From contig JANQSA010000002.1 of the NCBI GenBank assembly GCA_028284285.1, positions 1 to 64,000 on the forward strand: a DNA stretch of 64,000 nt, read 5' to 3'. Shown in pieces: positions 14,365 to 33,896 of this stretch. Every line of letters starts with the position of its first letter. Within the stretch, counting starts at the first letter, position 1. Origin of the DNA: Croceivirga sp. GTDB lineage: Bacteria; Bacteroidota; Bacteroidia; Flavobacteriales; Flavobacteriaceae. The notes beneath the pieces were generated by a model. That model was not told where the DNA came from and searched no databases. It saw nothing but the letters and a program-made list of their open reading frames with translations. The position numbers and the translations under genes were made by a program.

Positions 14365-14391
14365 GAAAAGTACTTTAAACGAATATAAACT

Positions 14392-14417
14392 TCCCGGGTA
14401 ACTCCGGGATTTTTTTA
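14392..14417 (+). terminator. Intrinsic terminator after the barrel gene
   Basis: Six-bp stem TCCCGG/CCGGGA with a GTAACT loop (14392-14409) followed by eight T in a row. It separates the barrel gene from the convergent lipoprotein gene that ends at 14419. Confidence 0.88.
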
Positions 14418-14418
14418 T

Positions 14419-15372: not shown

Positions 15373-15601
15373 ATGTAAACTTGGATTAGCATTCGGTGGC
15401 GCAAGATACGATTTTCAGCTTTTAAGGCTTTCTTATTAACATTTTTTGATTTACATGTGAAATTGCAAACCGTGTATGTAAAGTTAATGTAATCTTTTTC
15501 TTTGATATGCTACAGAAATACGAGTTAAAGTATGACGAAAATCAGTATAAACAGAGGTGAATACTTTTAGTTTTAACTCCGAAAATTCTAAACACATAAA
15601 C

Positions 15602-16405: not shown

Positions 16406-16428
16406 GTCAAAAAAAAGTTTTAATATTA

Positions 16429-16453
16429 AGCCCTAATTCCTAGGGCTTTTTTT
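16429..16453 (+). terminator. Intrinsic terminator abutting the next start codon
   Basis: Seven-bp stem AGCCCTA/TAGGGCT with an ATTCC loop (16429-16447) and a run of seven T ending at 16453. The ATG of the S4-domain gene is the very next base. It ends the lipoprotein transcript and leaves no room for a promoter or ribosome-binding region between the two genes. Confidence 0.9.
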
Positions 16454-16849
16454 ATGCGTGTCGATAAATTTCTCTGGTGCATTCGATACTTCAAAACAAG
16501 AAGCCTTGCTACGGCTGCGATAAAAAAGGGTCAGGTAAAGGTGAATGATGATGTTGTGAAACCCTCCAGGGAAGTTTTCCCTCAGGATAAACTGCAGCTT
16601 CGAAAAAATCAGATTGACTACCAACTGATCATTTTAGACATTCCGGAAAGCAGGGTGGGCGCAAAACTTGTGGATCTGTATCGAAAGGATATTACCCCAA
16701 AGGAAGCCTTTGAGCATAATGAACTTTTGCAATATGCGAAGAAACACTATAGAAAAAAAGGTGCCGGACGTCCCACAAAAAAGGATAGAAGGGATATTGA
16801 TGATTACCTTTTTGAAACAGATGAAGAAAAGAAAGGTGCAGAAGATTAA
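16454..16849 (+). CDS. S4-domain RNA-binding protein, Hsp15 family
   Basis: 131 residues with an N-terminal S4 RNA-binding fold (about 1-60): MRVDKFLWCIRYFKTRSLA, then IKKGQVKVNDDVVKPS. A basic tail rich in KK/RR and an acidic end follow. Relatives of E. coli Hsp15 bind stalled 50S subunits carrying nascent chains. The opening residues are the family N-terminus, so the start at 16454 is secure even though it follows a terminator T-run directly. A phosphoribosyltransferase gene follows 19 bases later. Confidence 0.9.
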   Translation: MRVDKFLWCIRYFKTRSLATAAIKKGQVKVNDDVVKPSREVFPQDKLQLRKNQIDYQLIILDIPESRVGAKLVDLYRKDITPKEAFEHNELLQYAKKHYRKKGAGRPTKKDRRDIDDYLFETDEEKKGAED

Positions 16850-16868
16850 CTAATTTTAAGTAAAAAAG

Positions 16869-17366
16869 ATGACCAATCGGATTCTGGAACATAATAAGAT
16901 TCAACACAAGATTAAACGGATGGCCTATCAGATTTATGAAGCCAATGTTGAAGAAAACGAAATTATAATTGCAGGTATCGCAGGGGGAGGGGAGTTATTT
17001 GCCAAAGAAATTGCCAAGGTTTTACAGGAAATCACATCTGCGACCATTGTATTTTGCCAGGTAAACATGGACAAAAGCAACCCCCTGACAAGCGGAGTTA
17101 CCACTTCTCTTCCGGCGAAAGCATACGAAAACAAATCTGTGGTCCTTGTGGATGATGTATTAAATTCCGGTACTACCCTGATTTATGGGGTGCATCACTT
17201 TTTGAAAACACCCTTGAAGCAACTTAAGACAGCGGTTTTAGTCAATCGCAACCACAAAAAGTATCCCGTAAAGGCAGACTACAAGGGCATATCGCTATCC
17301 ACTTCCTTACATGAGCATATTCGTGTGGCGTTTACGGCAAAAAATTACGGGGTATATCTAGAGTAA
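16869..17366 (+). CDS. Phosphoribosyltransferase (PyrR-like)
   Basis: 165-residue type I phosphoribosyltransferase. The PRPP-binding loop VVLVDDVLNSGTTL lies at 91-104 and an IAGIAGGGELFA PPi-loop at about 34-45. The overall arrangement resembles PyrR, the pyrimidine attenuator/uracil phosphoribosyltransferase, but no pyr genes are nearby and substrate cannot be assigned. It is closely spaced after the S4-domain gene and its last 9 bases overlap the convergent shikimate kinase gene. Confidence 0.85.
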   Translation: MTNRILEHNKIQHKIKRMAYQIYEANVEENEIIIAGIAGGGELFAKEIAKVLQEITSATIVFCQVNMDKSNPLTSGVTTSLPAKAYENKSVVLVDDVLNSGTTLIYGVHHFLKTPLKQLKTAVLVNRNHKKYPVKADYKGISLSTSLHEHIRVAFTAKNYGVYLE

Positions 17367-17870
17367 GCTTTGTATCTCTTCGCTCACTTGCTCCAGGCTT
17401 TTATAGTTACCTTCAATAGTAAAACCGGCCATGGCATAAAACGGTGCTCTTTCAAATAGATGCTTGCCAATGAATTCCGGGAGTTGTTCGTCCGGGATAT
17501 TAGCTACTAAAGGTCTGCGTGTTTTCCCGGATAGTATGCGCTCCGCCAAACTTCCTATGGACCATTTCAAATAAAAAGAATACGGTGTACGTTCTTTTAT
17601 GAGTTGCATATTATTCCCGTAACAAGGTGTCCCCCCCCCTAACGATAGTACCATCCCGGTATTCTTATCCAGAATATTTTGCAAAACCTCCATTTCCTTT
17701 TTTCGAAAAAAGAGCTCTCCCTTTTTTTCAAAAATCGCTGGAATCGTGCTTTCCATTGCCTTTTCAATTGCGTGGTCCAGGTCAATAAATTCAAGATCCA
17801 AAGCTTTAGCCAGTACTTTCCCTACGGCAGTCTTTCCGCTACACATATAGCCCAACAATACTATCTTCAT
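17358..17870 (-). CDS. aroK: Shikimate kinase
   Basis: 170 residues, normal for AroK. It phosphorylates shikimate at the 3-hydroxyl using ATP in the chorismate pathway. Visible are Walker A GYMCSGKT (7-14), the shikimate-binding FIDLDHAIE segment, the FRKKE arginine, LSLGGGTPCYGN and the lid SGKTRRPLV. It is convergent with the phosphoribosyltransferase gene (9-base overlap) and divergent from tRNA-Lys. Confidence 0.97.
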   Translation of the reverse strand: MKIVLLGYMCSGKTAVGKVLAKALDLEFIDLDHAIEKAMESTIPAIFEKKGELFFRKKEMEVLQNILDKNTGMVLSLGGGTPCYGNNMQLIKERTPYSFYLKWSIGSLAERILSGKTRRPLVANIPDEQLPEFIGKHLFERAPFYAMAGFTIEGNYKSLEQVSEEIQSLL

Positions 17871-17920
17871 ACCTACAAATAACGCAATAATTAAAAACTC
17901 AAATTTATCACTATTTGCTG

Positions 17921-17950
17921 TTGAATAATAAATTAAGGATTGTATATTTG
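17921..17950 (+). promoter_or_regulatory. tRNA-Lys promoter
   Basis: TTG at 17921-17923, a 19-base spacer and TATATTTG at 17943-17950 form a perfect consensus promoter. It lies 25 bases ahead of the mature tRNA-Lys 5' end. Before the island arrived it may also have served tRNA-Leu, now at 33810. Confidence 0.8.
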
Positions 17951-17975
17951 CAGCCGTTTTTAATCAAAAACATTA

Positions 17976-18048
17976 GACCTGATAGCTCAGTTGGTAGAGC
18001 ATCTCCCTTTTAAGGAGAGGGTCCTGGGTTCGAGCCCCAGTCAGGTCA
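17976..18048 (+). tRNA. tRNA-Lys (anticodon TTT)
   Basis: A 73-base cloverleaf. The acceptor arms are GACCTGA (17976-17982) and TCAGGTC (18041-18047), with discriminator A. The anticodon arm is TCTCC-CTTTTAA-GGAGA. The T arm is CTGGG-TTCGAGC-CCCAG. CCA is not encoded. The last 22 bases of the gene plus one more are repeated at 33733-33755, marking it as an integration site. The gene itself remains intact. Confidence 0.97.
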
Positions 18049-18049
18049 C
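18027..18049 (+). repeat. attL-like direct repeat (3' end of tRNA-Lys)
   Basis: The 23 bases starting GGTTCGAGCCCC, covering the T arm, 3' acceptor strand and discriminator of tRNA-Lys, recur perfectly at 33733-33755. This is the usual signature of site-specific integration by a tyrosine recombinase at a tRNA 3' end. Confidence 0.9.
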
Positions 18050-18192
18050 TTTTTTTCTTGTAACTTTTGAAAGTATTTTATTATTAGCTCATTACAGCTT
18101 TAAGTTTCCCAACTTTTTTCTAGTCTTTCTTTTTACAAATAATTAATAATCAGATACTTATATTTTATCTATCTAAAGTCTGGTAGGGCAAT

Positions 18193-18228
18193 TGACACAA
18201 ACCGGTCGCAATTTTTCGATTTGTGTCA
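18193..18228. repeat. 9-bp perfect inverted repeat at the island's left end
   Basis: TGACACAAA (18193-18201) and TTTGTGTCA (18220-18228) are perfect complements separated by 18 bases. The repeat lies 144 bases inside the island and about 90 bases before the DUF4365 remnant. It has no T-run, so it is not a terminator. It could be a regulator site or an arm-type recombinase site. Confidence 0.5.
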
Positions 18229-18321
18229 TTATTCTTATAGTATGTAAAAAAACATTTTTACAAAGAAATAGAATTAGTTGTAAAACCTTAGATTTAAAGA
18301 CTTACATTCTCAATTTTAATA

Positions 18322-18639
18322 ATGTCAAGAAGAGACAGTAGAACAGAAAGAATTGGAGTTTACAAAGCTGCTATAATCTTTACGGATGAGCTAGAGTGGA
18401 TTTTTAGAGAACAAGAAACCGTTGATGTAGGTGTCGACGCAATTCTTGAAAAGTCAAAAAGCGGTGAGCCTTCGGGAAAACTTTTGGCAGCTCAAATTAA
18501 AAGTGGTTCCGGTAACTTTTATGAGAATAAGGATTATTATGCCCATTACGTTTCTACTGTTCATCACGATTATTGGCTCTCCCTAAATTACTCTGTGTTC
18601 CGTGCTTCGTATCCCAGTATGCATACACAATATGGATGA
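18322..18639 (+). pseudogene. Truncated DUF4365 protein
   Basis: 105 residues. The first ~90 match the start of DUF4365: a short charged lead, then IFREQETVDVGVDAILEK, GKLLAAQIKSGSGNF and HHDYWLSL. The 'VDxGVDA...QIKSG' pattern resembles a nuclease-like D-(x)-QxK core. After HHDYWLSL the sequence leaves the family and stops, where full domains continue for roughly another 60 residues. DUF4365 proteins are frequent in mobile and defence regions; function is unproven. Most likely an inactive remnant. Confidence 0.6.
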
Positions 18640-19329
18640 TGTCAATATTTTTAGAACCAGCGCGGGGACGTCTTTGGCCAAGATTTATAAAGCCTTTGAA
18701 AACTGTAAGCCCTTATATACATCTTGATCGGCCTGCATTTTAAAGTGTGTGTAATGGTTTTGAATACAAGTGACAAAACAGCCAAATGCTCAATTCAATA
18801 AAAGGAGTCCACTATATTGTTATAAAGAACATCAGTTCTATAGACATATGAGCAAAAATTAGCATTATTTATCAAAATAGCGGAAAATGGTAAAAAAGTA
18901 TTGCAAAAGGTGTTTTTTTTGGAGGATTACAGTCCCGTTTTGTTCTAGTTTTACAGTACTTTCATTAGGTGTTTCTTTTAATTGAAAAGCAAACTCTTAA
19001 GAAACAACCCTATTTTAAGTTTTGTTAGGTAATTCTTTGAGTTAGTTTTAAGTTTAATTAAAAGGGCCGGTTTTCACCGACCCTTTTTATTGTGGTTTGG
19101 TCATGTTGGTTCTAGTATCAGAATTGTACTGGTGGCTTTAACCTTACCAGCAGAGAGCTTTCGGTTTAAGTCGTTCTATCCTATTTCTTCCAGAAGGGCT
19201 TTTACCTGTTTCCGTTTTTAAAGCCTAGTATCAGAAGAGCAATTGTTGCCGTAAAACAAAAAACTGTTGCTTAAATGAAATCCTCTGGCACAAATTCTCC
19301 GCCTGTAAATCATTCGGTTCCTTCCATGT
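18640..19329. other. Non-coding, decayed part of the island
   Basis: About 690 bases without an intact gene on either strand. Short open stretches are present, but none resembles a family I recognise. The only clear structure is the terminator hairpin at 19060. This suggests a gene once ended just before it. A phrase close to CTAGTATCAGAA occurs twice (about 19114 and 19228). Confidence 0.6.
19060..19088 (+). terminator. Orphan intrinsic terminator in the island
   Basis: Stem AAAAGGG..CGG/CCG..CCCTTTT with one internal mismatch, a TTTTCA loop and a trailing T-run (19060-19088). No intact plus-strand gene precedes it, so it is probably a leftover of a deleted gene. Confidence 0.7.
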
Positions 19330-19595
19330 TGGCTTTTACAAATGCTTTTGAAACCATATTCCTGGAACTTTACCCATATGGCCTTTTTCAAGTTTTTATT
19401 GTCCTTGGTGATTTACATTGCAGTAGGCTTGGCAACCGACACTCCAGATTATGCAACCCTAAAGAACTTTTCTTAGGTATCCTTGGTTCAGAAGGCAGGG
19501 CCGTTTCAAAGAAAAGCAAATCCATCATTGCTATTGTGCTCTCAATCGTCTTAATCATAATTGTAGCAACGGTGCTGATTTACATTACAGGATGA
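19330..19595 (+). pseudogene. Sodium:solute symporter C-terminal fragment, frameshifted
   Basis: One frame reads HMAFFKFLLSLVIYIAVGLA followed by TDTPDYATLKNFS and a TAG at 19474-19476. A shifted frame continues LGILGSEGRAVSKKSKS, then a hydrophobic helix ending VLIYITG at 19595. Joined, this is the usual C-terminus of a Bacteroidota SSS-family symporter: a membrane helix, a TPDYxxxK linker and a last helix ending Y-[IF]-T-G. The N-terminal ~500 residues are absent. It lies tail-to-tail with the intact symporter at 19743 but belongs to a different subfamily, so it is not a duplication of that gene's end. Confidence 0.55.
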
Positions 19596-19742
19596 AAGCT
19601 TGGGTCCAGAAAAAAGATTTGGTACTGATACCCATTTAACCACAAAATCTAACATTGAACCGGTCTTGAACAGGCCAGTCCTTAGCAATGACAATGGCAC
19701 AATCCTAGAGCCTGTCAAAAGTTTAAAAAGCACTTCCTTATT

Positions 19743-21404
19743 TCACCAGAAAATAGCATACAATACGGCCAAAACAATCATTACAAAAAAGGAACCAATA
19801 TTGAACAAAGGTGTTGTTTTGAACAATTCCCTGGTGAGTGGAATGCCTTTTGGGTCATCGGCTCCTTTGGCTTCAAGATGGCTCAAAAAAATAATAATGG
19901 CCATAGTCAATAAAGTGGTCAGACCCATTTGATGCATCCAAGGGGCCAACCATTCAAAGGAGGCCATGTTTGTTGGCATAATCTTGAGCGCCAAGGCCAA
20001 GGGAATGGAAAGAATAGCACCCCAAATAGCTGCTTTGTTGGTCGTTTTCCTGTAGAACAGCCCCAAGAGGAACACGGCCAAGATACCAGGGCTGACTAAC
20101 CCGGTGTATTCCTGAATATATTGGAAGGCCTGATCTAATCCATCCAACAATGGTGACACCAATACGGCAATAATCAGGGCTACGGCAGCAGTTAGCCTTC
20201 CCACACCGACCGTCTTTTTTTCACTGGAATTTTTATTGAAATACTGTTTATAAATATCCATCGTAAATATGGTCGAAGTGGAATTTAGCATGGAAGCCAA
20301 TGACGATACAATAGCTGCAGCCAAGGCGGCAAAAGCCACCCCTTTAAGTCCCGTTGGCAAAAATTGCAACAACCATGGATAAGCCTTATCGGCTTGGCCC
20401 AAAGAGGGGGTATTCATTTGCCCCACTTCTCCTAAAGAGGCCATGATCTCAGGATCATTGACCATTACATAGGCCGCTATACCGGGCACAACCACAATCA
20501 ACGGAATCAACAGTTTTAGAAAAGCTGCTAAAAGGATTCCCTTTTGCGATTCTTTCAATGATTTGGCGGCCAAGGTCCGTTGAATAATGTACTGGTTAAA
20601 TCCAAAATAGTACAAATTGGCTACCCAAAGGCCCCCAATCAACACCCAAATACCGGGAAGATCCAGATAGTTTCTGTTCGTACTACCATCGGCGTTGAAC
20701 TCCTCCAAAACCATATGAAACTTCTCCGGAGCGGCATCCCAAACCTTATGGAAACCAGCCATAACTCCCTCTCCCCCAGAAACTGTGTTCAAAGCTAAGT
20801 AAGTAGTGACCAGACCTCCCAGAACCAAGAAAACCACCTGAATCACATCGGTCCACGCTACGGCCGATAACCCACCATAAAGGGAATAGGCGGCAGCAAA
20901 CAGGGCTAGGCCTACGATAGCATATATCATGTCTATGCCCATGATAGTTTCAATGGCCAATCCGCCTAGGTATAGTACAGAGGTAAGGTTGACAAATACG
21001 TACAGAGCCAGCCAGAACACGGCCAAAATGGTCTTTAGGTTGGTAGAAAACCGTTTTTCTACGAATTCGGGAATGGTATACAACCCCTTTTCTATAAAAA
21101 TGGGCAGAAAGTACTTTCCGACAATTATCAAAGTCAAGGCCGCCATCCATTCATATGAAGCGATTGCCAAGCCCAGTGCAAATCCAGAACCGGACATGCC
21201 AATAAACTGTTCGGCCGAAATGTTGGCAGCAATCAACGAAGCACCAATGGCCCACCATGGCAAGGACTTACCGGCCAAAAAATAATCTTCGGCATTTTTC
21301 TGGTGACCCTTTTTATCCCTGGACACCCATAGGCCTACACCCAAAATTAAAATGGCATAGGCCACAAATACCACATAGTCCCAGATATCAAATCCTGCCG
21401 TCAT
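19743..21404 (-). CDS. Na+/galactose symporter (vSGLT-like)
   Basis: 553-residue inner-membrane symporter of the SSS family, very close to Vibrio parahaemolyticus vSGLT along its length. Matches include VGLWVSRDKKG, EDYFLAGKSLPWWA, LIAANISAEQFIGMSGSG, NQYIIQRTLAAKS and AIVSSLASMLNST. Residues that bind galactose and Na+ in vSGLT have counterparts: N61, I62, Q66 and E85 here (N64, I65, Q69, E88 in vSGLT), and the SS pair of VSSLA. It should import galactose or glucose with sodium, a gradient typical of marine bacteria. It is divergent from the GntR regulator and shares the operator region 21460-21491 with it. Confidence 0.93.
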   Translation of the reverse strand: MTAGFDIWDYVVFVAYAILILGVGLWVSRDKKGHQKNAEDYFLAGKSLPWWAIGASLIAANISAEQFIGMSGSGFALGLAIASYEWMAALTLIIVGKYFLPIFIEKGLYTIPEFVEKRFSTNLKTILAVFWLALYVFVNLTSVLYLGGLAIETIMGIDMIYAIVGLALFAAAYSLYGGLSAVAWTDVIQVVFLVLGGLVTTYLALNTVSGGEGVMAGFHKVWDAAPEKFHMVLEEFNADGSTNRNYLDLPGIWVLIGGLWVANLYYFGFNQYIIQRTLAAKSLKESQKGILLAAFLKLLIPLIVVVPGIAAYVMVNDPEIMASLGEVGQMNTPSLGQADKAYPWLLQFLPTGLKGVAFAALAAAIVSSLASMLNSTSTIFTMDIYKQYFNKNSSEKKTVGVGRLTAAVALIIAVLVSPLLDGLDQAFQYIQEYTGLVSPGILAVFLLGLFYRKTTNKAAIWGAILSIPLALALKIMPTNMASFEWLAPWMHQMGLTTLLTMAIIIFLSHLEAKGADDPKGIPLTRELFKTTPLFNIGSFFVMIVLAVLYAIFW

Positions 21405-21459
21405 AATTAGTATGGTTTAGTCAACATAATTCAGACTCTAAATATAAAAATAAAATATC

Positions 21460-21500
21460 AAAAAGCTACTAGTAGGGTCTAGTAGCTTTTTGTATATTTG
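21460..21500 (+). promoter_or_regulatory. Divergent control region: operator inverted repeat plus promoter
   Basis: AAAAAGCTACTA (21460-21471) and TAGTAGCTTTTT (21480-21491) form a perfect 12-bp inverted repeat with an 8-base spacer. The left half also contains the palindrome CTACTAGTAG. Directly after it comes TATATTTG (21493-21500), the -7 box of the regulator gene, so the repeat occupies the -33 position. On the other strand a TATATTTA-like box lies toward the symporter gene. A bound regulator would block or control both genes; the obvious candidate is the GntR protein at 21512. Confidence 0.7.
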
Positions 21501-21511
21501 TTATTGTCGTT

Positions 21512-22504
21512 ATGATGAAAATTAGAAGTAAAATAGGTATTCCAAAATATAGACAGATCATCACCTCAATTGAAGAGGCCATAGTCTCGGGTGTCTTGCA
21601 AAAAGGAGATCAAATACCCTCTATCAATGAGGTTAAAAAAGAGCACAAGCTATCCAGGGATACTGTGCTTATGGCGTTTAACGATTTGAAAAATCGAGGC
21701 ATCATTCAGTCCGTTGTAGGAAAAGGATATTATGTAGCGAGTGAAAATGTTACCGTTGCCCAAAAGATTTTCCTGCTTTTTGACGAACTCAATGCTTTTA
21801 AGGAGGATCTATATAATTCTTTTTTGGAAAATCTGGGCGGCAATAGTCAGGTTGATATTTTTTTTCATCATTTTAACAAATCTGTTTTCAGCAAGCTTAT
21901 TCATGATAACATTGGCAACTATAATTATTACGTAATTATGCCTGCCAACTTGAAGGATACCCGTTATGATGTGCAAAACCTGCCCACTGATAAGGTCTAT
22001 ATTCTAGATCAAACACATGATGATCTGTCACAATATTCGTCCATCTATCAAAACTTTGACAACGCCATTTTTGGCAACTTGACAAAGGCCTTAGACCGAA
22101 TCAGAAAGTACGAAAAGTTGATTTTGGTCTTTGACAAAAAGAAACAACCAAAAGGGATCATGAACGGATTTCTAAACTTTTGTGAGGAAAATAGCTTTGA
22201 ACATGAAGTTGTTGATGATCTGAAGTATCGGACTCTCAATAAGGGGGAAATCTATATTATGCCGGATGACAGGAGCTTATTGACGCTGATCAAAAAGATG
22301 AAGAGATTACAATTTGCCTTGGGCAAGGATATAGGGATAATCTCTTACAATGACACACTTCTTAAGGAGATTGTAGAAGGGGGAATCACCACTATATCCA
22401 CGGACTTCAATGCTATGGGAAAGCGTTTGGCCGAAATGATTATGAACAAAGAACAAGTTCAAATTGAAAACCCCAACAACCTAATACTTCGGAGCTCTTT
22501 GTAG
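21512..22504 (+). CDS. GntR-family regulator with a sugar-binding-like C-terminal domain
   Basis: 330 residues. The N-terminal winged helix (about 10-80) is of the GntR type: YRQIITSIEEAIVSGVLQKG, IPSINEVKKEHKLSRDT, then VVGKGYYVAS. Instead of a FadR or UTRA domain the C-terminal part (about 85-325) resembles a LacI/periplasmic-binding fold, with LILVFDKKKQPKG and GIISYNDTLLKEIVEGGITT. Such chimeras regulate sugar use in Bacteroidota. Position between the symporter and galK, and the 12-bp inverted repeat upstream, suggest control of galactose uptake and the Leloir genes. The inducer is not known. Confidence 0.85.
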   Translation: MMKIRSKIGIPKYRQIITSIEEAIVSGVLQKGDQIPSINEVKKEHKLSRDTVLMAFNDLKNRGIIQSVVGKGYYVASENVTVAQKIFLLFDELNAFKEDLYNSFLENLGGNSQVDIFFHHFNKSVFSKLIHDNIGNYNYYVIMPANLKDTRYDVQNLPTDKVYILDQTHDDLSQYSSIYQNFDNAIFGNLTKALDRIRKYEKLILVFDKKKQPKGIMNGFLNFCEENSFEHEVVDDLKYRTLNKGEIYIMPDDRSLLTLIKKMKRLQFALGKDIGIISYNDTLLKEIVEGGITTISTDFNAMGKRLAEMIMNKEQVQIENPNNLILRSSL

Positions 22505-22593
22505 TTGATGGAACATGGAAAAACAATTAAAATACAAAAAAGGTCGGGTCTGAAATTGACATTGTCGGCGAAAATCTAAATACCTAAATCCAT

Positions 22594-23742
22594 ATGGTCA
22601 AAGCATTGTTGAATGATGTAAAGGAAACGTTCATAGCAATGTTCAAGAAAGAGCCTTTATTGGTTTTTTCTCCCGGTAGAATCAACTTAATAGGCGAACA
22701 TACCGATTACAATGACGGATTCGTGTTTCCCGCGGCAGTGGACAAGGGTGTTGTGGCGGCCATCCATAGAAGTAACATGTCCCAAAGTATGGCAATAGCT
22801 TTGGACTTGCACAGTTCAATAGTTTTTGATTTGGACAAAATAAAGCCCTCAAAAGAAAAAAGCTGGGAAAACTATGTGTTGGGCGTTGTGGCTGAAATTA
22901 AGAAAAGGGGCAAGGTTCTGGGCAATTTCAATATTGTTTTGAAAGGTAATATTCCTGAAGGTGCTGGCATGTCATCTTCCGCAGCTTTGGAGAATAGTGT
23001 GGCCCTTGGACTTAATGAATTGTTCCAATTGGGCCTTTCAAAGGCAGAAATAATCTTCGTCTCCCAAAAGGCCGAACATAACTATGTAGGGGTCAACTGC
23101 GGCATAATGGACCAATACGCAAGTATGTACGGCATAAAAGACACTGCACTTCACTTGGATTGCAGGACCATAAAAGCAAAACCTTATACAATAGACTTTA
23201 AAGACCACCAACTCATGTTGATCAACACCAACGTAAAGCATAGTTTGTCAGATAGTGCCTACAACGATAGGCGCTCTGCGTGTGAACGGGTGTCCAAAAT
23301 TCTTGGGGCAACCGCATTACGGGATGTTACTGAAGCCGATTTGGAGCAAATAGAGGAGAGGATTTCGGCGGAAAACTATCAAAAAGCCCTCTATGTAATC
23401 CAAGAAAATGAGCGTACCATCAATGCAGCCAAAGCAATCGAAAATGGCGATTTGCGAACCTTGGGCCAGCTCATGTACCAGTCTCATGACGGCCTGTCGA
23501 ACCAGTATAAGGTAAGTTGTGAGGAGTTAGATTTTCTGGTCGAACAGGCCAAAGAAAACCCCAATGTCCTAGGGGCCAGAATGATGGGAGGCGGCTTTGG
23601 GGGCTGTACCATCAATTTGGTTGCCAAAAAAGCGGTTGAGGGCTTTGCCGAATCGGTTTCAGTGGCCTATGCCAAAAAGTTCAACAGGGAGTGTTCTGTG
23701 TACTTTGTAGCCTTATCGGATGGGGCCCATATCATTGACTAA
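22594..23742 (+). CDS. galK: Galactokinase
   Basis: 382-residue GHMP kinase that phosphorylates alpha-D-galactose at C1, the first committed step of the Leloir pathway. The galactokinase signature GRINLIGEHTDYNDG lies at 28-42, the ATP-binding PEGAGMSSSAALE in the middle and GGGFGGCTINLV near the C-terminus. The NCGIMDQYAS stretch supplies the catalytic aspartate. It is followed 20 bases later by galT, so the two are an operon. No galM or galE is found nearby. Confidence 0.97.
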   Translation: MVKALLNDVKETFIAMFKKEPLLVFSPGRINLIGEHTDYNDGFVFPAAVDKGVVAAIHRSNMSQSMAIALDLHSSIVFDLDKIKPSKEKSWENYVLGVVAEIKKRGKVLGNFNIVLKGNIPEGAGMSSSAALENSVALGLNELFQLGLSKAEIIFVSQKAEHNYVGVNCGIMDQYASMYGIKDTALHLDCRTIKAKPYTIDFKDHQLMLINTNVKHSLSDSAYNDRRSACERVSKILGATALRDVTEADLEQIEERISAENYQKALYVIQENERTINAAKAIENGDLRTLGQLMYQSHDGLSNQYKVSCEELDFLVEQAKENPNVLGARMMGGGFGGCTINLVAKKAVEGFAESVSVAYAKKFNRECSVYFVALSDGAHIID

Positions 23743-23762
23743 ACCATAACAAACCAACTGCA

Positions 23763-24803
23763 ATGAACACCCAATTACAGGATTATTCACACAAACGATA
23801 CAACATCCTAACGCAGGAATGGGTCCTGATATCTCCTCATAGGGCAAAACGCCCATGGCAGGGTCAGGAAGAGAAAGTAATCAACGAGGCGCGCCCAGCC
23901 TATGACCCCAATTGTTATCTGTGTTCGGGCAATACACGGGCCAATGGAGAAATCAATCCTAAATATCAAGATGTCTTTATCTTCAACAATGATTTTGCTG
24001 CCTTGCAAGAAAAGGCCCATCTGGGAACATTTAAGGATGGCCTGCTATGGGCCGAGGGCGAACGAGGCATTTGCCGTGTGGTCTGTTTTAGTCCCGACCA
24101 CAGCAAAAGTTTGGCACAGATGACAGTTTCGGAAATCACCAAAGTGGTCAGGGCTTGGAAAAAAGAGTATAAGGAGTTAGGTGGTCTTGAGTTTATCAAC
24201 TACGTGCAAATTTTTGAGAACAAAGGAGCAATCATGGGCTGCAGTAATCCGCACCCTCATGGGCAAATATGGAGCCAGTCCACCCTCCCCAACGAAGTTA
24301 TTAAAAAGGACCGTAGCCAAAAGACCTTTTTTGAGGAAAACAGAGTGTCCTTATTACAGGTTTACCTAGACCAAGAACTTGAAAGGAACGAACGGATCAT
24401 TTATGAGAATGATGGTTTTGTGGTTTTGGTACCCTTTTGGGCCATTTGGCCGTTTGAGGCCATGATCATTCCCAAAAAGCACCAAAAGGACATCGACCTG
24501 TTGTCGGAAGGTGAAGAAATGGGCTTTGCCGATGCCATACATACCATCACAGCGGCCTATGACAAAATTTTCAATTGCTCCTTTCCGTATTCAAGCGGAA
24601 TTCATCAGGCCCCTACGAACGGTAAGGATAATGAACATTGGCACTGGCATATGAGCTTCTACCCTCCTCTATTAAGGAACGCAACGGTTAAAAAGTTTAT
24701 GGTGGGCTATGAAATGTTCGGTTCACCACAGCGGGATATCACTGCTGAACAAGCCGTGAAATTGATTAAAGTCTTTATAAAAGAGAAGATAAAAGAAACG
24801 TAA
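23763..24803 (+). CDS. galT: Galactose-1-phosphate uridylyltransferase
   Basis: 346 residues. It exchanges UMP between UDP-glucose and galactose-1-phosphate in the Leloir pathway. The active-site triad NPHPHGQIW has H164 and the nucleophile H166. CYLC (C51, C54) is a zinc pair and the C-terminal block contains HWHWHMSFYPPLL. It is downstream of galK in the same operon and 2 bases ahead of the FGE-like gene. Confidence 0.97.
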   Translation: MNTQLQDYSHKRYNILTQEWVLISPHRAKRPWQGQEEKVINEARPAYDPNCYLCSGNTRANGEINPKYQDVFIFNNDFAALQEKAHLGTFKDGLLWAEGERGICRVVCFSPDHSKSLAQMTVSEITKVVRAWKKEYKELGGLEFINYVQIFENKGAIMGCSNPHPHGQIWSQSTLPNEVIKKDRSQKTFFEENRVSLLQVYLDQELERNERIIYENDGFVVLVPFWAIWPFEAMIIPKKHQKDIDLLSEGEEMGFADAIHTITAAYDKIFNCSFPYSSGIHQAPTNGKDNEHWHWHMSFYPPLLRNATVKKFMVGYEMFGSPQRDITAEQAVKLIKVFIKEKIKET

Positions 24804-24805
24804 AC

Positions 24806-25240
24806 ATGAGTTCACAAAAAAGACGATCGGCCATAAAAAAAATCATGGCGACCTCGGGTGCTGTCCTTTTGGGAAATATCATGAAAGGGAGCATTGGACA
24901 AACCAAGACTATCGAAAAAAATGATTTTGGCCTTTTCGATATGACCGGAAACGTTTGGGAATGGACCAGTGACCTTTACAATACCCAATATTTTGGGCAA
25001 CTCAAAGCGAAGAATATGGTGGTGTTAAACCCTATTGGGGCAACTAGCGCCTACAACCCCTCCTACCCCAATACTAGTGAAAGGGCCATTAAGGGGATAT
25101 CTTATTTATGTAGTTCTTCTTATTGTGCCAGTTATCGTCTGTCATTTCGAATCACCACTGCCGAAGACTCCTCTATGGAGCATTTACGCTTTCGGACCGT
25201 GCTGTCGCCAAAAATGAGGAAAGAAGACAATACGCCATAA
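24806..25240 (+). CDS. Truncated formylglycine-generating-enzyme-like protein
   Basis: 144 residues. The first ~39 form a basic, weakly hydrophobic leader (QKRRSAIKKIMATSGAVLLG) resembling a Tat or signal sequence. Residues 40-131 match only the C-terminal part of the FGE/SUMF1 domain: DMTGNVWEWTSDLY, then RAIKGISYLC (C102), SYCASYR (C107) and HLRFR. The two cysteines align with the catalytic pair of FGE, which oxidises a sulfatase cysteine to formylglycine. The normal first ~150 residues of the domain are missing, so the fold cannot be complete. Probably a deletion remnant still under the gal operon; no sulfatase is nearby. Confidence 0.7.
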   Translation: MSSQKRRSAIKKIMATSGAVLLGNIMKGSIGQTKTIEKNDFGLFDMTGNVWEWTSDLYNTQYFGQLKAKNMVVLNPIGATSAYNPSYPNTSERAIKGISYLCSSSYCASYRLSFRITTAEDSSMEHLRFRTVLSPKMRKEDNTP

Positions 25241-25382
25241 TAAGGCCGCTTAAAATGTTTGACTATAATCAGTAAAAAACAATGGGAAAACAGCGATGCG
25301 GATACCAGACCATATGGTTGAATTGTTAAGCTTTTTGGGTGATTAAATACACCACATCCGGCACAATGGATAGTTAAATTGA

Positions 25383-28577
<3,195 letters not shown>

Positions 28578-28626
28578 ATAGTCGATCTAAGCGGAACAGC
28601 TTCTCCTAGTATTTAGAATCATGATG

Positions 28627-28870
28627 CGGACAAGTCCTTCCGAAGGTGATGAAGTTGTTGGAGACTTTGGTAATATGTTTGTGTTGGTAATGGAAATAAC
28701 TAAACAAGTTAAAGCTATGGGTTTACTTACCTATGGAAATTCTTCCAGTCCTGACAGCCCCACTATAGTGACCAACTAGAACTGTTAAGCAAGAACGCGC
28801 TAAGGGAAATTTGGATGGATAGGGACAGCTAAAAAGCACACTTATTGGAACTAGAAAGGTTTGTCGGCAA
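28627..28870 (+). pseudogene. Penicillin-acylase-family (S45) C-terminal fragment
   Basis: A short stretch translates as GDEVVGDFGNMFVLVMEITK, then GLLTYGNSSSPDSP. After a frameshift it continues QLELLSKNALREIWMDRDS, an in-frame stop, then KAHLLELERF. This is the end of a Bacteroidota S45 N-terminal-nucleophile hydrolase, where GLLxYGQSSNPxSP..DQLELxSKxxLRPIW is typical. The upstream ~700 residues are absent, so it is a dead fragment. The assignment rests on motif memory only. Confidence 0.45.
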
Positions 28871-28940
28871 AGGACTGTTTAAAAGCTGGCCACAAGCAAT
28901 GAACTCATAATAGACTTTTCTGAAATGGAAAAAATGGTTT

Positions 28941-29365
28941 TTGTTCAAGAAAACCATTAATAATCTAAAATATTCCTTAAAAAGCTTTTTGTATAAATCC
29001 GTCTATAATGAATTTATAGACTATTACTGCAAATCGCAATCGATATTACGGATTGAGAAAAAACATATGAAACTATTGGATTCAATTGTGATGGACAAGG
29101 ATGATGAGAAAACACAAAAGTTGATTCGGGCCGTTAAAGAGATAATCCAGGAACTACCCCCTAAATGCAAACAAGTTTTTGAATTGAATAAAACTGAAGG
29201 GTTGACCAATATTGAGATATCCAATATTTGGGCATTGCCATAAAATTGGGTAGAAGCTCAAATATTAAGAGGGTTTAAGCTCATAAGAAGAAAGCTCAAG
29301 GAAAGAACGAATCTTGTTTTGTTCCATATTTTTAATATCAGAACAAGAATTATCCGCTATCTATG
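28941..29365 (+). pseudogene. Broken ECF sigma factor
   Basis: The reading frame begins inside region 2 (SLKSFLYKSVYNEFIDYY) and continues to region 4 (IIQELPPKCKQVF, then EGLTNIEISN). It then shifts frame: LGIAIK in one frame and VEAQILRGFKLIRRKLKE in another. Joined, this is the C-terminal two-thirds of a SusC/D-associated ECF sigma factor. The first ~60 residues are missing. It hints that a polysaccharide-utilisation locus with its own sigma/anti-sigma pair once lay here. Confidence 0.6.
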
Positions 29366-29444
29366 AACTTTTTATTTTGAGATATACGATAGTATCGACT
29401 TCCATTGTCGAATGACGCAATTTCCATACAAAAAAGAGGCAATT

Positions 29445-30602
29445 TCACCATTCAGCTATACTACCATCTTGGTTTCGCCATATTGGGTTGCTCCACTGAT
29501 GACCAATTTTTTGCGCTTCTCTCAATTTTTCTTCATCGATGCGAATTCCCAGACCAGGTTCCTTTAAAAGTGGAATATACCCATCTTTTAAATCAAAAAC
29601 TTCAGGGTTTTCCATATAATCCAATAGCTCATAGCCCTCGTTATAATGAATTCCCAGACTACTTTCTTGTATGAACGCGTTGATACAGGTAAAATCAATA
29701 TGTAATGCTGAGGCCAGTGAAATTGGTCCTAAAGGACAGTGTGGTGCCAATGCTACATCATAAGCCTCGGCCATGGCTGCTATTCTCCTTACCTCGGATA
29801 TTCCTCCGGCATGGCTAAGATCGGGTTGTATAATATCCACCACACCTCCTTGAAGCACTTCTTTAAAATCCCATCTGGAATACATGCGCTCACCCATGGC
29901 AATGGGGATAGAAGTATGGGAATAGATATGGTCCAATGCATCATTGTTCTCGCTCAAAACAGGTTCCTCAATAAACATAGGGGCATAGGGGGCCAATTCA
30001 TCCACAAGCGGTTTGACCATGCCTTTGTGGATCCTTCCATGAAAGTCCAGTGCAATATCAAGGTCGTCGCCAAATTCCTTGCGCAAAAGGGCGATGTTCT
30101 TGGCAGCACTTTTTATTTTTTTAGTTGAATCAATCCATTCGAAGGCTGCTGTGGCATTCATCTTAACGGCCTTATAACCTTCATCTATCTTGGATTGGGC
30201 CTGCTCCATAACCACTTTGGGGCTATCACCCCCAATCCAACAGTACATTTTCATTTTCTGCCGTACCGCCCCTCCCAACAATTCATAAACTGGAACACCC
30301 AGCGACTTGCCCTTAATATCCCAAAGTGCCTGATCTATCCCTGCCAAGGCACTCATTAAAATAGGTCCTCCCCTATAAAAGCCACCCCTATAGAGGGTCT
30401 GCCATATATCCTCAATAGAACTGGCGGAACGACCAACCAGGTATTGGGAAAGTTCATGTACACACGCCTCCACGGTATCGGCTCTTCCCTCCACAACAGG
30501 TTCTCCCCATCCAACAATACCGTTCTTGGTCGTCATCTTTAAGAAAAACCACCGAGGGGGGACTTTGAAGAGCTCTATTTTTTCAATCAGTAAAGCGTCC
30601 AT
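29445..30602 (-). CDS. dgoD: D-galactonate dehydratase
   Basis: 385-residue enolase-superfamily enzyme converting D-galactonate to 2-keto-3-deoxy-galactonate in the De Ley-Doudoroff pathway. It closely resembles E. coli DgoD: VPPRWFFLKM, GWGEPVVEGRA, YRGGFYRGGPILMSA, ALDFHGRIHKGM (metal Asp and catalytic His), FIEEPVLSEN and GERMYSRWDF (metal glutamates), QPDLSHAGGISE, then LAPHCPLGPISLAS (second His) and GIHYNEG. Its start overlaps the end of the aldolase gene (30583) by 20 bases. It is the last gene of the operon driven from 32997-33025. Confidence 0.95.
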   Translation of the reverse strand: MDALLIEKIELFKVPPRWFFLKMTTKNGIVGWGEPVVEGRADTVEACVHELSQYLVGRSASSIEDIWQTLYRGGFYRGGPILMSALAGIDQALWDIKGKSLGVPVYELLGGAVRQKMKMYCWIGGDSPKVVMEQAQSKIDEGYKAVKMNATAAFEWIDSTKKIKSAAKNIALLRKEFGDDLDIALDFHGRIHKGMVKPLVDELAPYAPMFIEEPVLSENNDALDHIYSHTSIPIAMGERMYSRWDFKEVLQGGVVDIIQPDLSHAGGISEVRRIAAMAEAYDVALAPHCPLGPISLASALHIDFTCINAFIQESSLGIHYNEGYELLDYMENPEVFDLKDGYIPLLKEPGLGIRIDEEKLREAQKIGHQWSNPIWRNQDGSIAEW

Positions 30603-31233
30603 GGTTTCTTATGAATTCTTTGAATTGACGTGCCTTTGAGGCGATGCTGTCTAAATCCTCTTGCGTATTCGCTTCTTGTTTTACCAGGGTACTTCCAATT
30701 CCCAACCCATCAACTCCCGCATCAAGCCAATCTTTCATATTATCAATACCTATCCCTCCCACTGCAAAAAACATGGTTTCAGCAAAAGGTCCCCTCAGAG
30801 ATTTATAGTAAGAAATTCCCAATTGACCGGCAGGAAAGAGTTTTACAATATCCGCCCCATAGGAAACCGCATTGGCTATCTCAGTTGGGGTGAAAGCTCC
30901 CATGATAACGGGAATGTCACCCTTCATCGCTTCCCCAACAACGGCTCTGTTGGTATTGGGCGTTACCAAAAATTGGGCTCCAGCCCCAATTGCTATCTGT
31001 GCAAGTTGTTGGGTCGTAATGGTCCCGGCTCCGACCAAGATATCAGGATATCTTTTTCGTGCTGAAGTAATCTGAATATCAAAATTTGGAGTATTGGAAG
31101 TGATTTCCAACACCTTGATTCCTCCCTGTACGAGACTGTCAATTGCCTTGGATACCATTTCTCCATGCTTTAACCGAATAATGGAGACTATTTTTTCTTC
31201 CAACAATCCATCCAATATCTCTTCTTTTCTCAT
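30583..31233 (-). CDS. KDPG/KDPGal aldolase
   Basis: 216 residues of the class I KDPG aldolase family (Eda/DgoA). It cleaves 2-keto-3-deoxy-6-phospho-galactonate or -gluconate into pyruvate and glyceraldehyde-3-phosphate. Visible are the catalytic glutamate in KVLEITSNTPN, LVGAGTITT, LVTPNTN and the Schiff-base lysine in DIVKLFPAGQLG. The ATG at 31233 is chosen because it gives the family N-terminus and overlaps the kinase stop as ATGA. The longer frame upstream lies within the kinase gene. Given its neighbours the phospho-galactonate substrate is likelier. Confidence 0.93.
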   Translation of the reverse strand: MRKEEILDGLLEEKIVSIIRLKHGEMVSKAIDSLVQGGIKVLEITSNTPNFDIQITSARKRYPDILVGAGTITTQQLAQIAIGAGAQFLVTPNTNRAVVGEAMKGDIPVIMGAFTPTEIANAVSYGADIVKLFPAGQLGISYYKSLRGPFAETMFFAVGGIGIDNMKDWLDAGVDGLGIGSTLVKQEANTQEDLDSIASKARQFKEFIRNHGRFTD

Positions 31234-32240
31234 CGTATCACGTGTCCTAATAAATTCCCGTCCATAATTGACAAAACCTCTTCTTCCGTACTTGTATGCA
31301 AATCTCCCTTTATGGTATGTTTTAAGGCAAATGCAGATGTGGCAAATTCGATTGCCCGACTTACGCTCCATTTGTTGCCTACAGCATGAAGATATGCTGC
31401 CGCAAAGGCGTCACCCGTGCCAAAACGATCTTCAATTTGTACCTCATATACTTTTGAAACATTGATTTGCCCATAGGAAAAAGCCATTCCTTGAAGCTTG
31501 TTTTGCGAAGCGGAACGATGTTCCCTTATGGTGAAGGCCATTTGATCCACGCCAAAAAGGGAACTTGCCTTGAGCATGGCATTTTTTGTACGCTCTAAAG
31601 AATCCTCTTCAGCAAAACGTAGCCCGTATACATCGTTCAGGACCCCCAAATTGGCAAAAATCAAATCGGAGTGCTCAATGATTCGACTAAAGATTATCCT
31701 TGCCTTATTGCCACTGGGCCATAATGTTCTTCTGAAATTCAGATCGAAACTGACTTTGACCCCCATTTCTTTGGCCACTTTTGCGGCCAATACGGTTTCT
31801 TCGGCACATTGGTCGGACAAAGCCGGGGTAATTCCTGAAAGGTGCAACCATTCCTTATCTTTCAAAATGGTTTTCCATTCAAATTCCCCAACCGTTAATT
31901 TACTTATGGAAGACCCTTGCCTGTCATACACCACACGGGAAGGCCTGATTGATTTTCCAAGCTCAATAAAGTAGGTGCCCATGCGTTTTCCGCCAAACAG
32001 CACCCTATTCGTTGTAACCCCAAATTTCTTAAGACTCAACAATGCCGCTTTTCCGATGGGATTATTGGGAACTTTGCTTATGAAATCCACTTGGTTTCCC
32101 AAACAGGCAAGTGAGATGGCCACATTGGACTCGGCCCCGGCGTACCCGACCGAGAAATCATTTGCAAGTAATAGCTTATCTCCCTTATATGAAGGAGTGA
32201 GCCTTAGCATAATCTCACCAAAAGTTACAAAACCTTTCAT
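31230..32240 (-). CDS. 2-keto-3-deoxygluconate/galactonate kinase, PfkB family
   Basis: 336-residue ribokinase-fold (PfkB) sugar kinase: opening FVTFGEIMLRLTP, then YAGAESNVAISLACLG, and the C-terminal signature DRFGTGDAFAAAYLHA with the catalytic aspartate. This is the KdgK type, not the unrelated E. coli DgoK type. It phosphorylates the product of galactonate dehydratase for the aldolase encoded next. It overlaps the regulator upstream (4 bases) and the aldolase downstream (4 bases), so the operon is tightly coupled. Confidence 0.92.
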   Translation of the reverse strand: MKGFVTFGEIMLRLTPSYKGDKLLLANDFSVGYAGAESNVAISLACLGNQVDFISKVPNNPIGKAALLSLKKFGVTTNRVLFGGKRMGTYFIELGKSIRPSRVVYDRQGSSISKLTVGEFEWKTILKDKEWLHLSGITPALSDQCAEETVLAAKVAKEMGVKVSFDLNFRRTLWPSGNKARIIFSRIIEHSDLIFANLGVLNDVYGLRFAEEDSLERTKNAMLKASSLFGVDQMAFTIREHRSASQNKLQGMAFSYGQINVSKVYEVQIEDRFGTGDAFAAAYLHAVGNKWSVSRAIEFATSAFALKHTIKGDLHTSTEEEVLSIMDGNLLGHVIR

Positions 32241-32962
32241 CTCTCCATTGATTTGACATAATTATCCAGGGTGACTTTTAGATGCTCTCTCATAAGACCT
32301 TCTGCCTTCTTGGCATTCTTTCTTGATATGGCATTTGTTATCTTTTCATGATAATGGAGCATTTTTTCTTTCTCCTCGGCCATGTTACCTGCAATGGTCT
32401 TGGCAAAGACATCTTGTTTAAATTTTGGTACTAAGTTAAAAATGGGGTCCATAAGCAAATGAAGGACAGGGTTGTTAATGCTCTCTAGCAAAATACTATG
32501 AAATTGGTTGTCCAATTCCGCCTCCGTTATTTTATCATCAAGAGGGCACTGATATAGCTTTTCCATATTGTCATGAAGCCTAAGGATATGGTCGTCAGTT
32601 CTGGCCGTTGCAGATTTGGCAGCAATCATAGGCTCAATCATTTCACGACAATCAATTGCATGTAGCATCAGGTCCTTATTGGAAGAAAGTCCAAAGAACA
32701 GGTTCAAAATTTCTGAGGCATTTTGAATGCTCATCTCGGAGACAAATACCCCGCTGCCCTTTTTTACATCCACAATGCCTTTTGAGTTTAATCCTCTTAT
32801 GGCTTCGCGAATCACCGTTCTACTGACATTGAAAATGGAACAAAGTTCGTGCTCGGTCGGTATTTTCTGCAAAGGTCGATATTGTCCTTGTCTAATGGCC
32901 GTGGTCAATTCAGCTTCAACATGTCCACTCAGGGATTCGGGTTTTATAATGGGTTCAAACAT
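32237..32962 (-). CDS. FadR-type GntR regulator of the galactonate operon
   Basis: 241 residues. The N-terminal winged helix is LTTAIRQGQYRPLQKIPTEH, then FNVSRTVIREAIRGLNSKG and VKKGSGVFVS. The all-helical FCD ligand domain follows (about 95-230), with conserved polar positions able to hold a metal and a small acid. FCD regulators usually answer to sugar acids or keto acids. As first gene of the operon it probably autoregulates and senses galactonate or a keto-deoxy intermediate. It is unrelated to the GntR/sugar-binding chimera at 21512. Confidence 0.9.
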   Translation of the reverse strand: MFEPIIKPESLSGHVEAELTTAIRQGQYRPLQKIPTEHELCSIFNVSRTVIREAIRGLNSKGIVDVKKGSGVFVSEMSIQNASEILNLFFGLSSNKDLMLHAIDCREMIEPMIAAKSATARTDDHILRLHDNMEKLYQCPLDDKITEAELDNQFHSILLESINNPVLHLLMDPIFNLVPKFKQDVFAKTIAGNMAEEKEKMLHYHEKITNAISRKNAKKAEGLMREHLKVTLDNYVKSMER

Positions 32963-32996
32963 GGTAGCTCAAGATTAAAATTTATAATACATCATA

Positions 32997-33025
32997 CAAA
33001 TTTACAAAAATTTTACGTTTCGCAA
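32997..33025 (-). promoter_or_regulatory. Promoter of the galactonate operon
   Basis: On the minus strand TTG (33023-33025), an 18-base spacer and TAAATTTG (32997-33004) form a consensus promoter. It lies about 35 bases ahead of the regulator's ATG. Just downstream of the -7 box is a short direct repeat, TGTATGA-TGTATTA, which may be the regulator's site. Confidence 0.75.
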
Positions 33026-33732
33026 GCCTAAAGATTCTGAACGGCTATACCAACTGGGTTAAAAACTGGGTTTTGATAAAAACTGAGGGGCTCACAGTAA
33101 GTAGATTGTTTTCAACAAGGTTTAAACTATAGGTATCCCGGTAAATCAACGTTTACTAATACTTGGCTCCAACAATTTATTGTAGCTCTTGCTTTAGAAC
33201 TAAGGATTCTTCACTTTGAAATGGAAGTCAGATGACGCCATTTGCTATCAAATTGACCGTCAACAAATCGGTCAACAGATTTTGTAAGGTACTTGTGAAC
33301 CGTATCAAATCCTCGTTTTTAGGAAGCGTTTGAATCCTGCGGAGATTTAATACCGTCGGGTATCCTCAATGATTCTAATTAACCGCACGTGATTCTGAAT
33401 ATCACTCGTAACCTTAAAGTTCATAATGACTAAGAAATGATTGCCTATTGAATCTAGAGCGTTTTCCCTTTCTTGATTTCTTGGATAGCCTTCGATAAGT
33501 TTGCCGGATAAAATGTAATTTTCTGATTGATTTAAAGGAACGTAGTAACTTAAACTAAATGAATGGGATTTGATTTACACAAATCTTAAGGGCTTTTCAA
33601 TTAGCTATAAATAGTATTATCTTCGCCAGCGAAAGTTCAATTGACGTACTAACGCGTTTTTGGTTCACAAATCGTCAACATTGATGAGTGAGCCGTTGCA
33701 GGATGATTGTAAACACTGGGATCAGGCCGTTA
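33026..33732. other. Non-coding right end of the island
   Basis: About 700 bases with no recognisable gene. The longest feature is a minus-strand open frame of 75 codons (33574-33347) flanked by stops. It lacks a start codon and resembles no family I know, so it may be a remnant. No integrase fragment was found. No consensus promoter facing tRNA-Leu was seen. Confidence 0.6.
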
Positions 33733-33755
33733 GGTTCGAGCCCCAGTCAGGTCAC
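33733..33755 (+). repeat. attR-like direct repeat (copy of tRNA-Lys 3' end)
   Basis: A perfect 23-base copy of 18027-18049. The bases before it do not continue the tRNA, so this is only the 3' fragment left at the far boundary of the island. The terminator directly to its right probably belonged to the original tRNA-Lys transcript. Confidence 0.9.
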
Positions 33756-33757
33756 GG

Positions 33758-33789
33758 AAAAGTTAGGTCAGATGACTTAACTTTTTTTG
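33758..33789 (+). terminator. Intrinsic terminator right of the island boundary
   Basis: A stem of about 12-13 bp (AAAAGTTAGGTCA paired with TGACTTAACTTTT, one G-U pair) closes a very small loop and is followed by T. It begins 3 bases after the tRNA-Lys repeat. Before the insertion it may have ended the tRNA-Lys transcript. Confidence 0.75.
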
Positions 33790-33809
33790 TTTAATTTCAA
33801 AACGCAGTG

Positions 33810-33896
33810 GCCCACGTGGTGGAATTGGTAGACACGCTATCTTGAGGGGGTAGTGTTCGTAAGGACGTGCTGGTTCGAGTCCAGTCGTGGGCACCA
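33810..33896 (+). tRNA. tRNA-Leu (anticodon GAG)
   Basis: Class II tRNA with a long variable arm. The acceptor arms are GCCCACG and CGTGGGC (33886-33892), with discriminator A at 33893 and encoded CCA at 33894-33896. The anticodon arm is CTATC-TTGAGGG-GGTAG. The variable arm is TGTTCGTAAGGACG and the T arm CTGG-TTCGAGT-CCAG. Its terminator follows directly. The nearest consensus promoter upstream on this strand is the tRNA-Lys promoter, now on the far side of the island. Confidence 0.96.

Follow-up and report, generated by a model that had tools for sequence, protein, structure and literature searches.

A galactose-use island at tRNA-Lys of Croceivirga as a probable integrase-less remnant of a tRNA-targeting element family of Flavobacteriaceae

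How did 15.7 kb of accessory DNA, including genes for galactose use, come to lie between a tRNA-Lys gene and a tRNA-Leu gene in Croceivirga sp.? The locus lies in a 64,000-nucleotide stretch (hereafter the window) of contig JANQSA010000002.1 from assembly GCA_028284285.1, that is, in a 99-kb contig (C69) of an assembly of 4.82 Mb in 82 contigs. An initial annotation, made from the sequence alone, had read it as an island integrated at tRNA-Lys between perfect repeats. The comparisons described here strongly favour this view and extend it: the island is very probably the integrase-less remnant of a site-specific integrative element, one of a Flavobacteriaceae family that inserts into tRNA 3′ ends.

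The last 23 bp of tRNA-Lys, GGTTCGAGCCCCAGTCAGGTCAC, recur 15.7 kb further on (18027-18049 and 33733-33755; Table 1), the two copies being identical at 23 of 23 positions, and no third copy was found in the 64-kb window with up to three mismatches allowed. A whole-genome BLAST search with the 201-base tRNA region recovered both of these copies as exact matches and, at other places, five weaker ones (76-84%), and simple arithmetic puts the chance recurrence of a 23-mer within 15.7 kb at about 1e-10 to 1e-9. The right-hand repeat stops at the tRNA 3′ end and is followed by a terminator hairpin and then tRNA-Leu. The G+C content of the island (0.418) shows no contrast with its surroundings (0.419 and 0.430).

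The state of the locus before insertion is preserved in relatives. The aroK-to-tRNA-Lys flank was searched for in 60 genomes, the island's own included, and the loci of 18 relatives were compared; tRNA-Leu begins no more than 60 nt after tRNA-Lys in eight of the 18, among them three of the ten from the same genus (G003, G005 and G009), where tRNA-Lys is followed, with no insert, by a similar hairpin, then by tRNA-Leu and then by the carotenoid genes. The hairpin behind tRNA-Lys in these three congeners is formed by AAGTTAAG...CTTAACTT and then a T run, and to the right of the second copy in the window AAGTTAGGTC...GACTTAACTT shows the same layout of hairpin and T run. This match identifies the hairpin at 33758 as the original terminator of tRNA-Lys and the intervening 15.7 kb as an insertion. 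The initial annotation had predicted just such empty sites, had called the terminator an orphan and had blamed the island for parting tRNA-Lys from tRNA-Leu and the carotenoid cluster; the three congeners agree on each point, and together with the duplicated tRNA 3′ end they support integration into tRNA-Lys. In a second set, made up of 80 loci around the MerR gene, tRNA-Lys stands directly before tRNA-Leu in seven and further off in another seven, while the remaining 66 stretches lack tRNA-Lys and cannot be judged; one locus of this set (L050) is G005 again.

Elsewhere in the genus the interval between the two tRNAs is occupied, with different contents in several members: it spans about 15 kb in G002, 34 kb in G004, 35 kb in G006 and 67 kb in G007, and the two tRNAs stand on separate contigs in G001, G008 and G010. 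Twelve island proteins were compared with stretches from ten congeners, of which seven hold the whole interval and G001, G008 and G010 part of it, and galK, galT and lacZ were absent from all the stretches compared. The case that would count most against an insertion, in which the galactose genes are ancestral at this place, was accordingly not seen in any of the seven whole intervals. Only distant relatives of other island proteins (24-38% identity) turned up: G001 and G006 have relatives of the MR_MLE protein, G004 of the symporter, and the G007 interval of the aldolase, kinase and GntR/FCD genes. The lacZ copies of G008 start at contig ends, and the broken interval of that genome could be their place. 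The sites of G001 and G006, the closest relatives as judged by flank identity, are occupied as well: their contents differ from those of the island, their ends are of the same family and have decayed, and a decayed copy of the 23-bp repeat stands before tRNA-Leu (3 mismatches in G001, 4 in G006). In two of the genus members, tRNA-Leu(gag), which lies about 100 bp from the MerR gene, is flipped with respect to it, although the order of the neighbours is kept (G002:C1:4561707 and G004:C33:410471, locus L048). The loci of G006 (L046) and G001 (L047) give identical match figures against the MerR-crtI host stretch of the window and differ by about 7% in their right ends; the two records may be near-identical in the MerR-crtI stretch.

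The kind of element that was inserted is revealed by its right end. The final 150 bp before the right-hand repeat are conserved between the window, G001, G006 and a metagenome-assembled genome of another genus (L055). A sequence model of this end matched 91 of 397 family genomes at E<=0.01 and 28 below 1e-6; four of the 28 (G000, which is the genome of the window, G016, G124 and G200) had been used to build the model, and the weak matches partly reflect tRNA-Lys itself. The strong matches contain TAnnTTTG, which resembles a promoter element, as well as the motif GTTCACAAATCGTCAACA and the 3′ tail of a tRNA. A search of 299 family genomes for GTTCACAAATCGTCAACA as an exact 18-mer gave 27 occurrences, spread over 16 of the genomes, and none of the reversed pattern; every one of the 27 lies at an element end, 8 at left ends and 19 at right ends. 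At the left ends, 103-104 bp separate the end of a tRNA (Lys in three, Asp in three, Arg-cct in two) from the motif, and the start of an integrase homologue, placed just inside the end, lies 94-138 bp past it, although only the first 164 and 70 integrase residues match in L292 and L284, respectively. The right ends show no integrase match; their tRNA tails match at 18-23 of 23 positions, where shuffles reach at most 14-16, and the distance from motif to tail is 51-53 bp in 18 of the 19. The window carries the motif at 18 of 18 positions, 52 bp before its core. By motif and spacing, its right end is that of a member of a tRNA-targeting element family of Flavobacteriaceae, for which Lys, Asp and Arg targets were seen.

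Pairs of element ends (att sites) indicate how such an element would join its target. All 12 pairs compared have 51-52 bp between the end of the right motif and the core; four core pairs are perfect and eight differ only at positions 5-10 of 23, on the T-loop side, positions 11-23 being identical. This confinement would place the crossover toward the tRNA end, and the elements seem to carry a T-loop variant of their own. The restriction of mismatches to positions 5-10 was noted in the pairs of G420, G295, G070, G200, G262, G087 and G171. The left ends contain one to four copies of the AATCGTCAACA part of the motif (with up to 2 mismatches). From its position and spacing we infer that the motif is an arm-binding site of the integrase, the distances of about 5 and about 10 helical turns fitting arm-type sites. 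A hairpin follows the core directly in seven of the eight left ends (z -2.8 to -6.6 against mononucleotide shuffles), L271 being the exception (-0.9). The 18-mer, its reverse complement and its 15-base core were not found in the open-access literature searched.

A reading of the right end as an RNA gene was also considered and set aside. Individual and consensus folds gave a hairpin with apparent, uncontrolled covariation in six sequences; a perfect inverted arm of at least 7 bp, however, is present in only 5 of the 19 exact right ends. An Rfam search gave, besides tRNA-Leu, only matches below gathering scores near the right end. A DNA site is preferred because of the near-rigid spacing to the core, the repetition of the motif in left ends and the scarcity of inverted arms. 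Two right ends lie 1.75 kb apart behind one tRNA-Lys in L248 (G295:C18), in tandem and with no integrase detected, and L055 contains, at about 100-1310, repeated stretches (GAAATCATAGCCG and similar) around small open reading frames (ORFs), which look like a cassette array by eye only.

These ends also bear on the repeat itself. Relatives do have tandem tRNA-Lys copies, from which one might suppose that the second copy arose by plain duplication, or by homologous recombination in the neighbourhood of tRNA genes, in place of site-specific integration; this is scarcely credible, since the partial copy stops where the cores of other elements stop, the arm motif stands 52 bp before it and the empty sites restore the flank.

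What a complete relative of the island may look like is illustrated by an element of G195 that starts at tRNA-Asp(gtc) and ends 53.9 kb away in an exact repeat of the last 23 bp of that tRNA (G195:C1:200936-254866; L257, L240 and L239). Its first gene, starting about 230 bp inside attL, encodes a tyrosine recombinase of 406 residues with arm-binding, SAM-like and catalytic domains (PF00589, PF13102, PF17293), and further genes encode TraG, a coupling protein and a DUF5712 protein, so that the element looks like an integrative and conjugative element (ICE). In G195, G311 and G336, which represent three genera, the 20 kb up to the right end are 99.98-99.99% identical and the next stretch 97-100%, and the DNA past the core differs. 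The island resembles the G195 element in right-end architecture, arm motif and 23-bp tRNA core; unlike the island, the G195 element has a tRNA-Asp target, an integrase, conjugation genes and other cargo. Genes with Schlafen, GmrSD and RES domains lie near the conjugation genes of the G195/G311/G336 element, and its right part (L239, about 13780-19633) contains several dispersed direct repeats of 110-195 bp that are 82-89% identical.

At its left end the island lacks what these relatives have. The best match to the arm motif there reaches 12 of 18 positions, equalled in 46 of 200 shuffles, while the left arms of G001 and G006 match at 16 of 18 at the expected place; the 79 bases after the left core fold only weakly (-6.5 kcal/mol, z -1.4), and positions 18050-18330 gave no match at E 1e-3 to any of the loci compared. 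No tyrosine recombinase was found inside the left end, where the family places it, and PF00589 matches 10 places in the genome, none of them on the contig of the island. A relic was likewise not detected in the island: a profile of 10 integrases, which does find a 77-residue integrase fragment in L255, returned nothing at E<=1, and tblastn gave only short matches (E>=0.1). Relaxase, coupling protein and type IV secretion system families were absent from the 13 island ORFs scanned with Pfam, shorter and opposite-strand ORFs lying outside that scan. By Pfam, profile and tblastn searches, then, the island does not combine an integrase of its own with transfer or mobilization genes, as an autonomous ICE or integrative and mobilizable element (IME) would. 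It has counterparts in this, as the right ends behind tRNA-Lys in G295 and G070 likewise come without left arm or integrase.

The favoured sequence of events would be as follows. A tyrosine recombinase with an arm-binding domain would have joined an element circle to the 3′ end of tRNA-Lys, so that the tRNA was restored on the left and its former 3′ end, with the terminator, was displaced rightward, and both the repeats and the empty sites agree with this; the integrase, the left arm and the left terminator would later have been lost, leaving the right end intact. With integrase and left arm missing, an excised circle is unlikely, and the loss of all three parts, together with galactose cargo that shows two deletion-like gaps, makes it probable that the island is stranded, a state from which accretion of a related element with an integrase and a fresh left end might free it.

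Several observations sit uneasily with this account. The left end resembles no locus compared and may therefore represent a replacement, or the end of another family, instead of a plain deletion; G001 and G006 retain left arms and yet have no integrase in the stretches searched, so that integrase loss alone does not date the event; one right end of the 19, in L276, has its tail at 57-58 bp; the right end of the window is 73% identical to that of G001 and 74% to that of another genus (L055); and immobility is itself deduced, as a related integrase might still act. It is also conceivable, although rather unlikely, that a single old insertion preceded the split of the window, G001 and G006, its contents turning over later and the galactose genes arriving by interior replacement. 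The related right end at the same place in all three would fit such an origin. The core of the window is, however, perfect, in contrast to the 3 and 4 mismatches in G001 and G006, the right end is about as close to L055 as to G001 (with host flanks at 70% and 77%, respectively), and of the 12 island proteins only the MR_MLE protein has a relative in the G001 and G006 stretches compared, at 24-33% identity.

A further alternative, which we consider very unlikely, is that the island is mobile in trans, its cores being recognized by an integrase encoded elsewhere in the genome, with satellite-like excision. Its cores are perfect, and the genome encodes two integrases with 45 and 47% identity to that of G195 (contigs C82 and C22), the one on C82 in a family-like placement about 226 bp after tRNA-Pro(ggg). 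Against this, the island has no left arm, the genome contains no second exact copy of GTTCACAAATCGTCAACA, and the motif was not found, with up to 4 mismatches, around five of the 10 PF00589 matches, those on C82 and C22 included. The integrase beside tRNA-Pro(ggg) (L160) suggests that another element of the clan resides in this genome. The reading as a stranded, integrase-less remnant is retained.

The contents of this remnant are composite and partly decayed, as judged from a truncated DUF4365 gene, a seemingly frameshifted FecI-type gene and a fossil inner end (Table 1). The fossil resembles ends in G005, G004, G006 and the genome itself (G000), the last two aligning only partly; the copies of G004 and G005 terminate in tRNA-Arg(acg)-like tails, and AATCCTGCGGAG is present both in the fossil and in the genome's own tRNA-Arg(acg). 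The end in G004 that is like the fossil has a cluster of tRNA-Arg(acg) genes some 4.6 kb away. The galactose cluster is shorter by 3.7 kb and 1.1 kb than that of G002, which lies on C1 at 3.2 Mb and not at tRNA-Lys; the rest of the TIM-barrel gene, an NAD-epimerase gene, a LacI-type gene, most of the FGE-domain gene and an aldose epimerase gene are missing, and the fused ORF at 24806-25240 suggests a deletion in the window rather than a gain in G002. Identity to G002 is 83% from the SSF gene to galT, 79% in lacZ and 71% in the 380-bp FGE piece, and the last 2.5 kb of lacZ are 91 and 85% identical to two G008 contigs. As the host DNA from MerR to crtI is 75% identical to both G002 and G008, the 79-91% identity of the cargo indicates that the latter moves horizontally.

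On a plain reading, the predicted genes would serve the uptake of galactose or galactosides, the entry of galactose into the Leloir pathway and the conversion of galactonate into pyruvate and triose phosphate. The nearest solved chain to the galactonate dehydratase is 3rr1. No epimerase or galactose dehydrogenase family was found among the 13 island ORFs scanned. Matches to the galactokinase family PF10509 occur in all 11 genus genomes searched, and the island's own genome has a second, weaker one on C40.

Table 1. Positions of the island, its ends and its predicted genes in the window
Feature	Position	Strand	Basis or remark
tRNA-Lys(ttt), integration target	17976-18049	+	ARAGORN
attL core, last 23 bp of tRNA-Lys	18027-18049	+	exact sequence match
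Left end	18050-18321	.	without family arm motif and hairpin; no similarity to any locus compared
Truncated DUF4365 gene	18322-18639	+	PF14280, profile 1-87 of 139; its end (18587-18686) 76% like G008:C39
Sodium:solute symporter (SSF)	19743-21404	-	Pfam/NCBIfam
GntR-headed, periplasmic-binding-like regulator	21512-22504	+	Pfam
galK, galactokinase	22594-23742	+	TIGR00131, 332 bits (cut-off 227)
galT, galactose-1-phosphate uridylyltransferase	23763-24803	+	Pfam/NCBIfam
Fused ORF, start of TIM-barrel gene joined to end of FGE-domain gene	24806-25240	+	G002 has 3.7 kb more here
lacZ-type GH2 beta-galactosidase	25407-28577	+	Pfam/NCBIfam
FecI-type sigma factor relic, seemingly frameshifted	28914-29363	+	Pfam
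Galactonate dehydratase (MR_MLE)	29445-30602	-	PRK14017, 627 bits (cut-off 311)
KDPG-type aldolase	30583-31371	-	Pfam/NCBIfam
PfkB sugar-acid kinase	31230-32240	-	Pfam/NCBIfam
GntR/FCD regulator	32237-32962	-	Pfam
Fossil inner right end of a tRNA-Arg(acg)-associated sister subfamily, with decayed tRNA-Arg-like tail	33183-33357	+	sequence comparison
Right end of element	33600-33732	+	promoter-like TATCTTCG (33618), arm motif GTTCACAAATCGTCAACA (33663-33680), 52 bp to core
attR core, displaced original tRNA-Lys 3′ end	33733-33755	+	exact sequence match
Original tRNA-Lys terminator hairpin	33758-33790	+	compared with empty sites L030, L032 and L036
tRNA-Leu(gag), first host gene right of island	33810-33896	+	ARAGORN

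The right end may also hold more than a recombination site. TAnnTTTG, a promoter motif of Bacteroidota type, points outward in 13 of 19 right ends as compared with 5.7% of shuffles, L280 and L285 being one near-identical element, and the promoter-like TATCTTCG of the window is not among the 13. In the integrated state the host hairpin terminator stands behind the core, and in a circle the left-end hairpin present in 7 of 8 left ends would follow it. As a decidedly speculative idea, which we regard as improbable, the right end could produce in both states a similar short RNA whose end is formed by a tRNA 3′ tail and a terminator, and which might regulate the element or its target tRNA; if true, such an RNA could explain why the right end has outlived the left in the window, G295 and G070.

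The arm motif and its near-fixed spacings provide a sequence tag for both ends of these elements in Flavobacteriaceae, and one that also reveals integrase-less remnants, which integrase-based searches would miss. The island points to a transfer of sugar-use genes between marine flavobacteria through an element that targets tRNA genes. What began as a guess from sequence is now a tested case, with empty sites, a donor element family and missing parts that can be identified.

Remnants of this kind have a precedent in cis-mobilizable elements (CIMEs), outlined in PMC5704250 as elements that have lost their integration and transfer genes and kept attL and attR. The island agrees with that outline in the loss of both gene sets, the core repeats kept at a tRNA site and an origin in an ICE/IME family. 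Its attR keeps an arm, while its attL is a bare core without a left arm and in this departs from the outline; the island is probably a CIME-like remnant. Among conjugative elements, the ICEEaIII group of Chryseobacterium and Elizabethkingia, as reported in PMC8694125, occupies the 3′ ends of tRNA Glu-TTC, Arg-ACG and Asp-GTC and includes ICECspPOL2 of Chryseobacterium with an 18-bp direct repeat. Like that group the island sits at a tRNA 3′ end, and unlike it the island has no conjugation genes. The 10K genomic island of Riemerella anatipestifer, for which PMC6764341 describes a tyrosine recombinase and demonstrated integration and excision at tRNA-Arg, shares with the island direct repeats at its ends; its repeat, in contrast, is 53 bp long and its own integrase is retained. 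Elements at tRNA 3′ ends are thus already known, and the useful new part is the att architecture, that is, the arm motif with its spacings.

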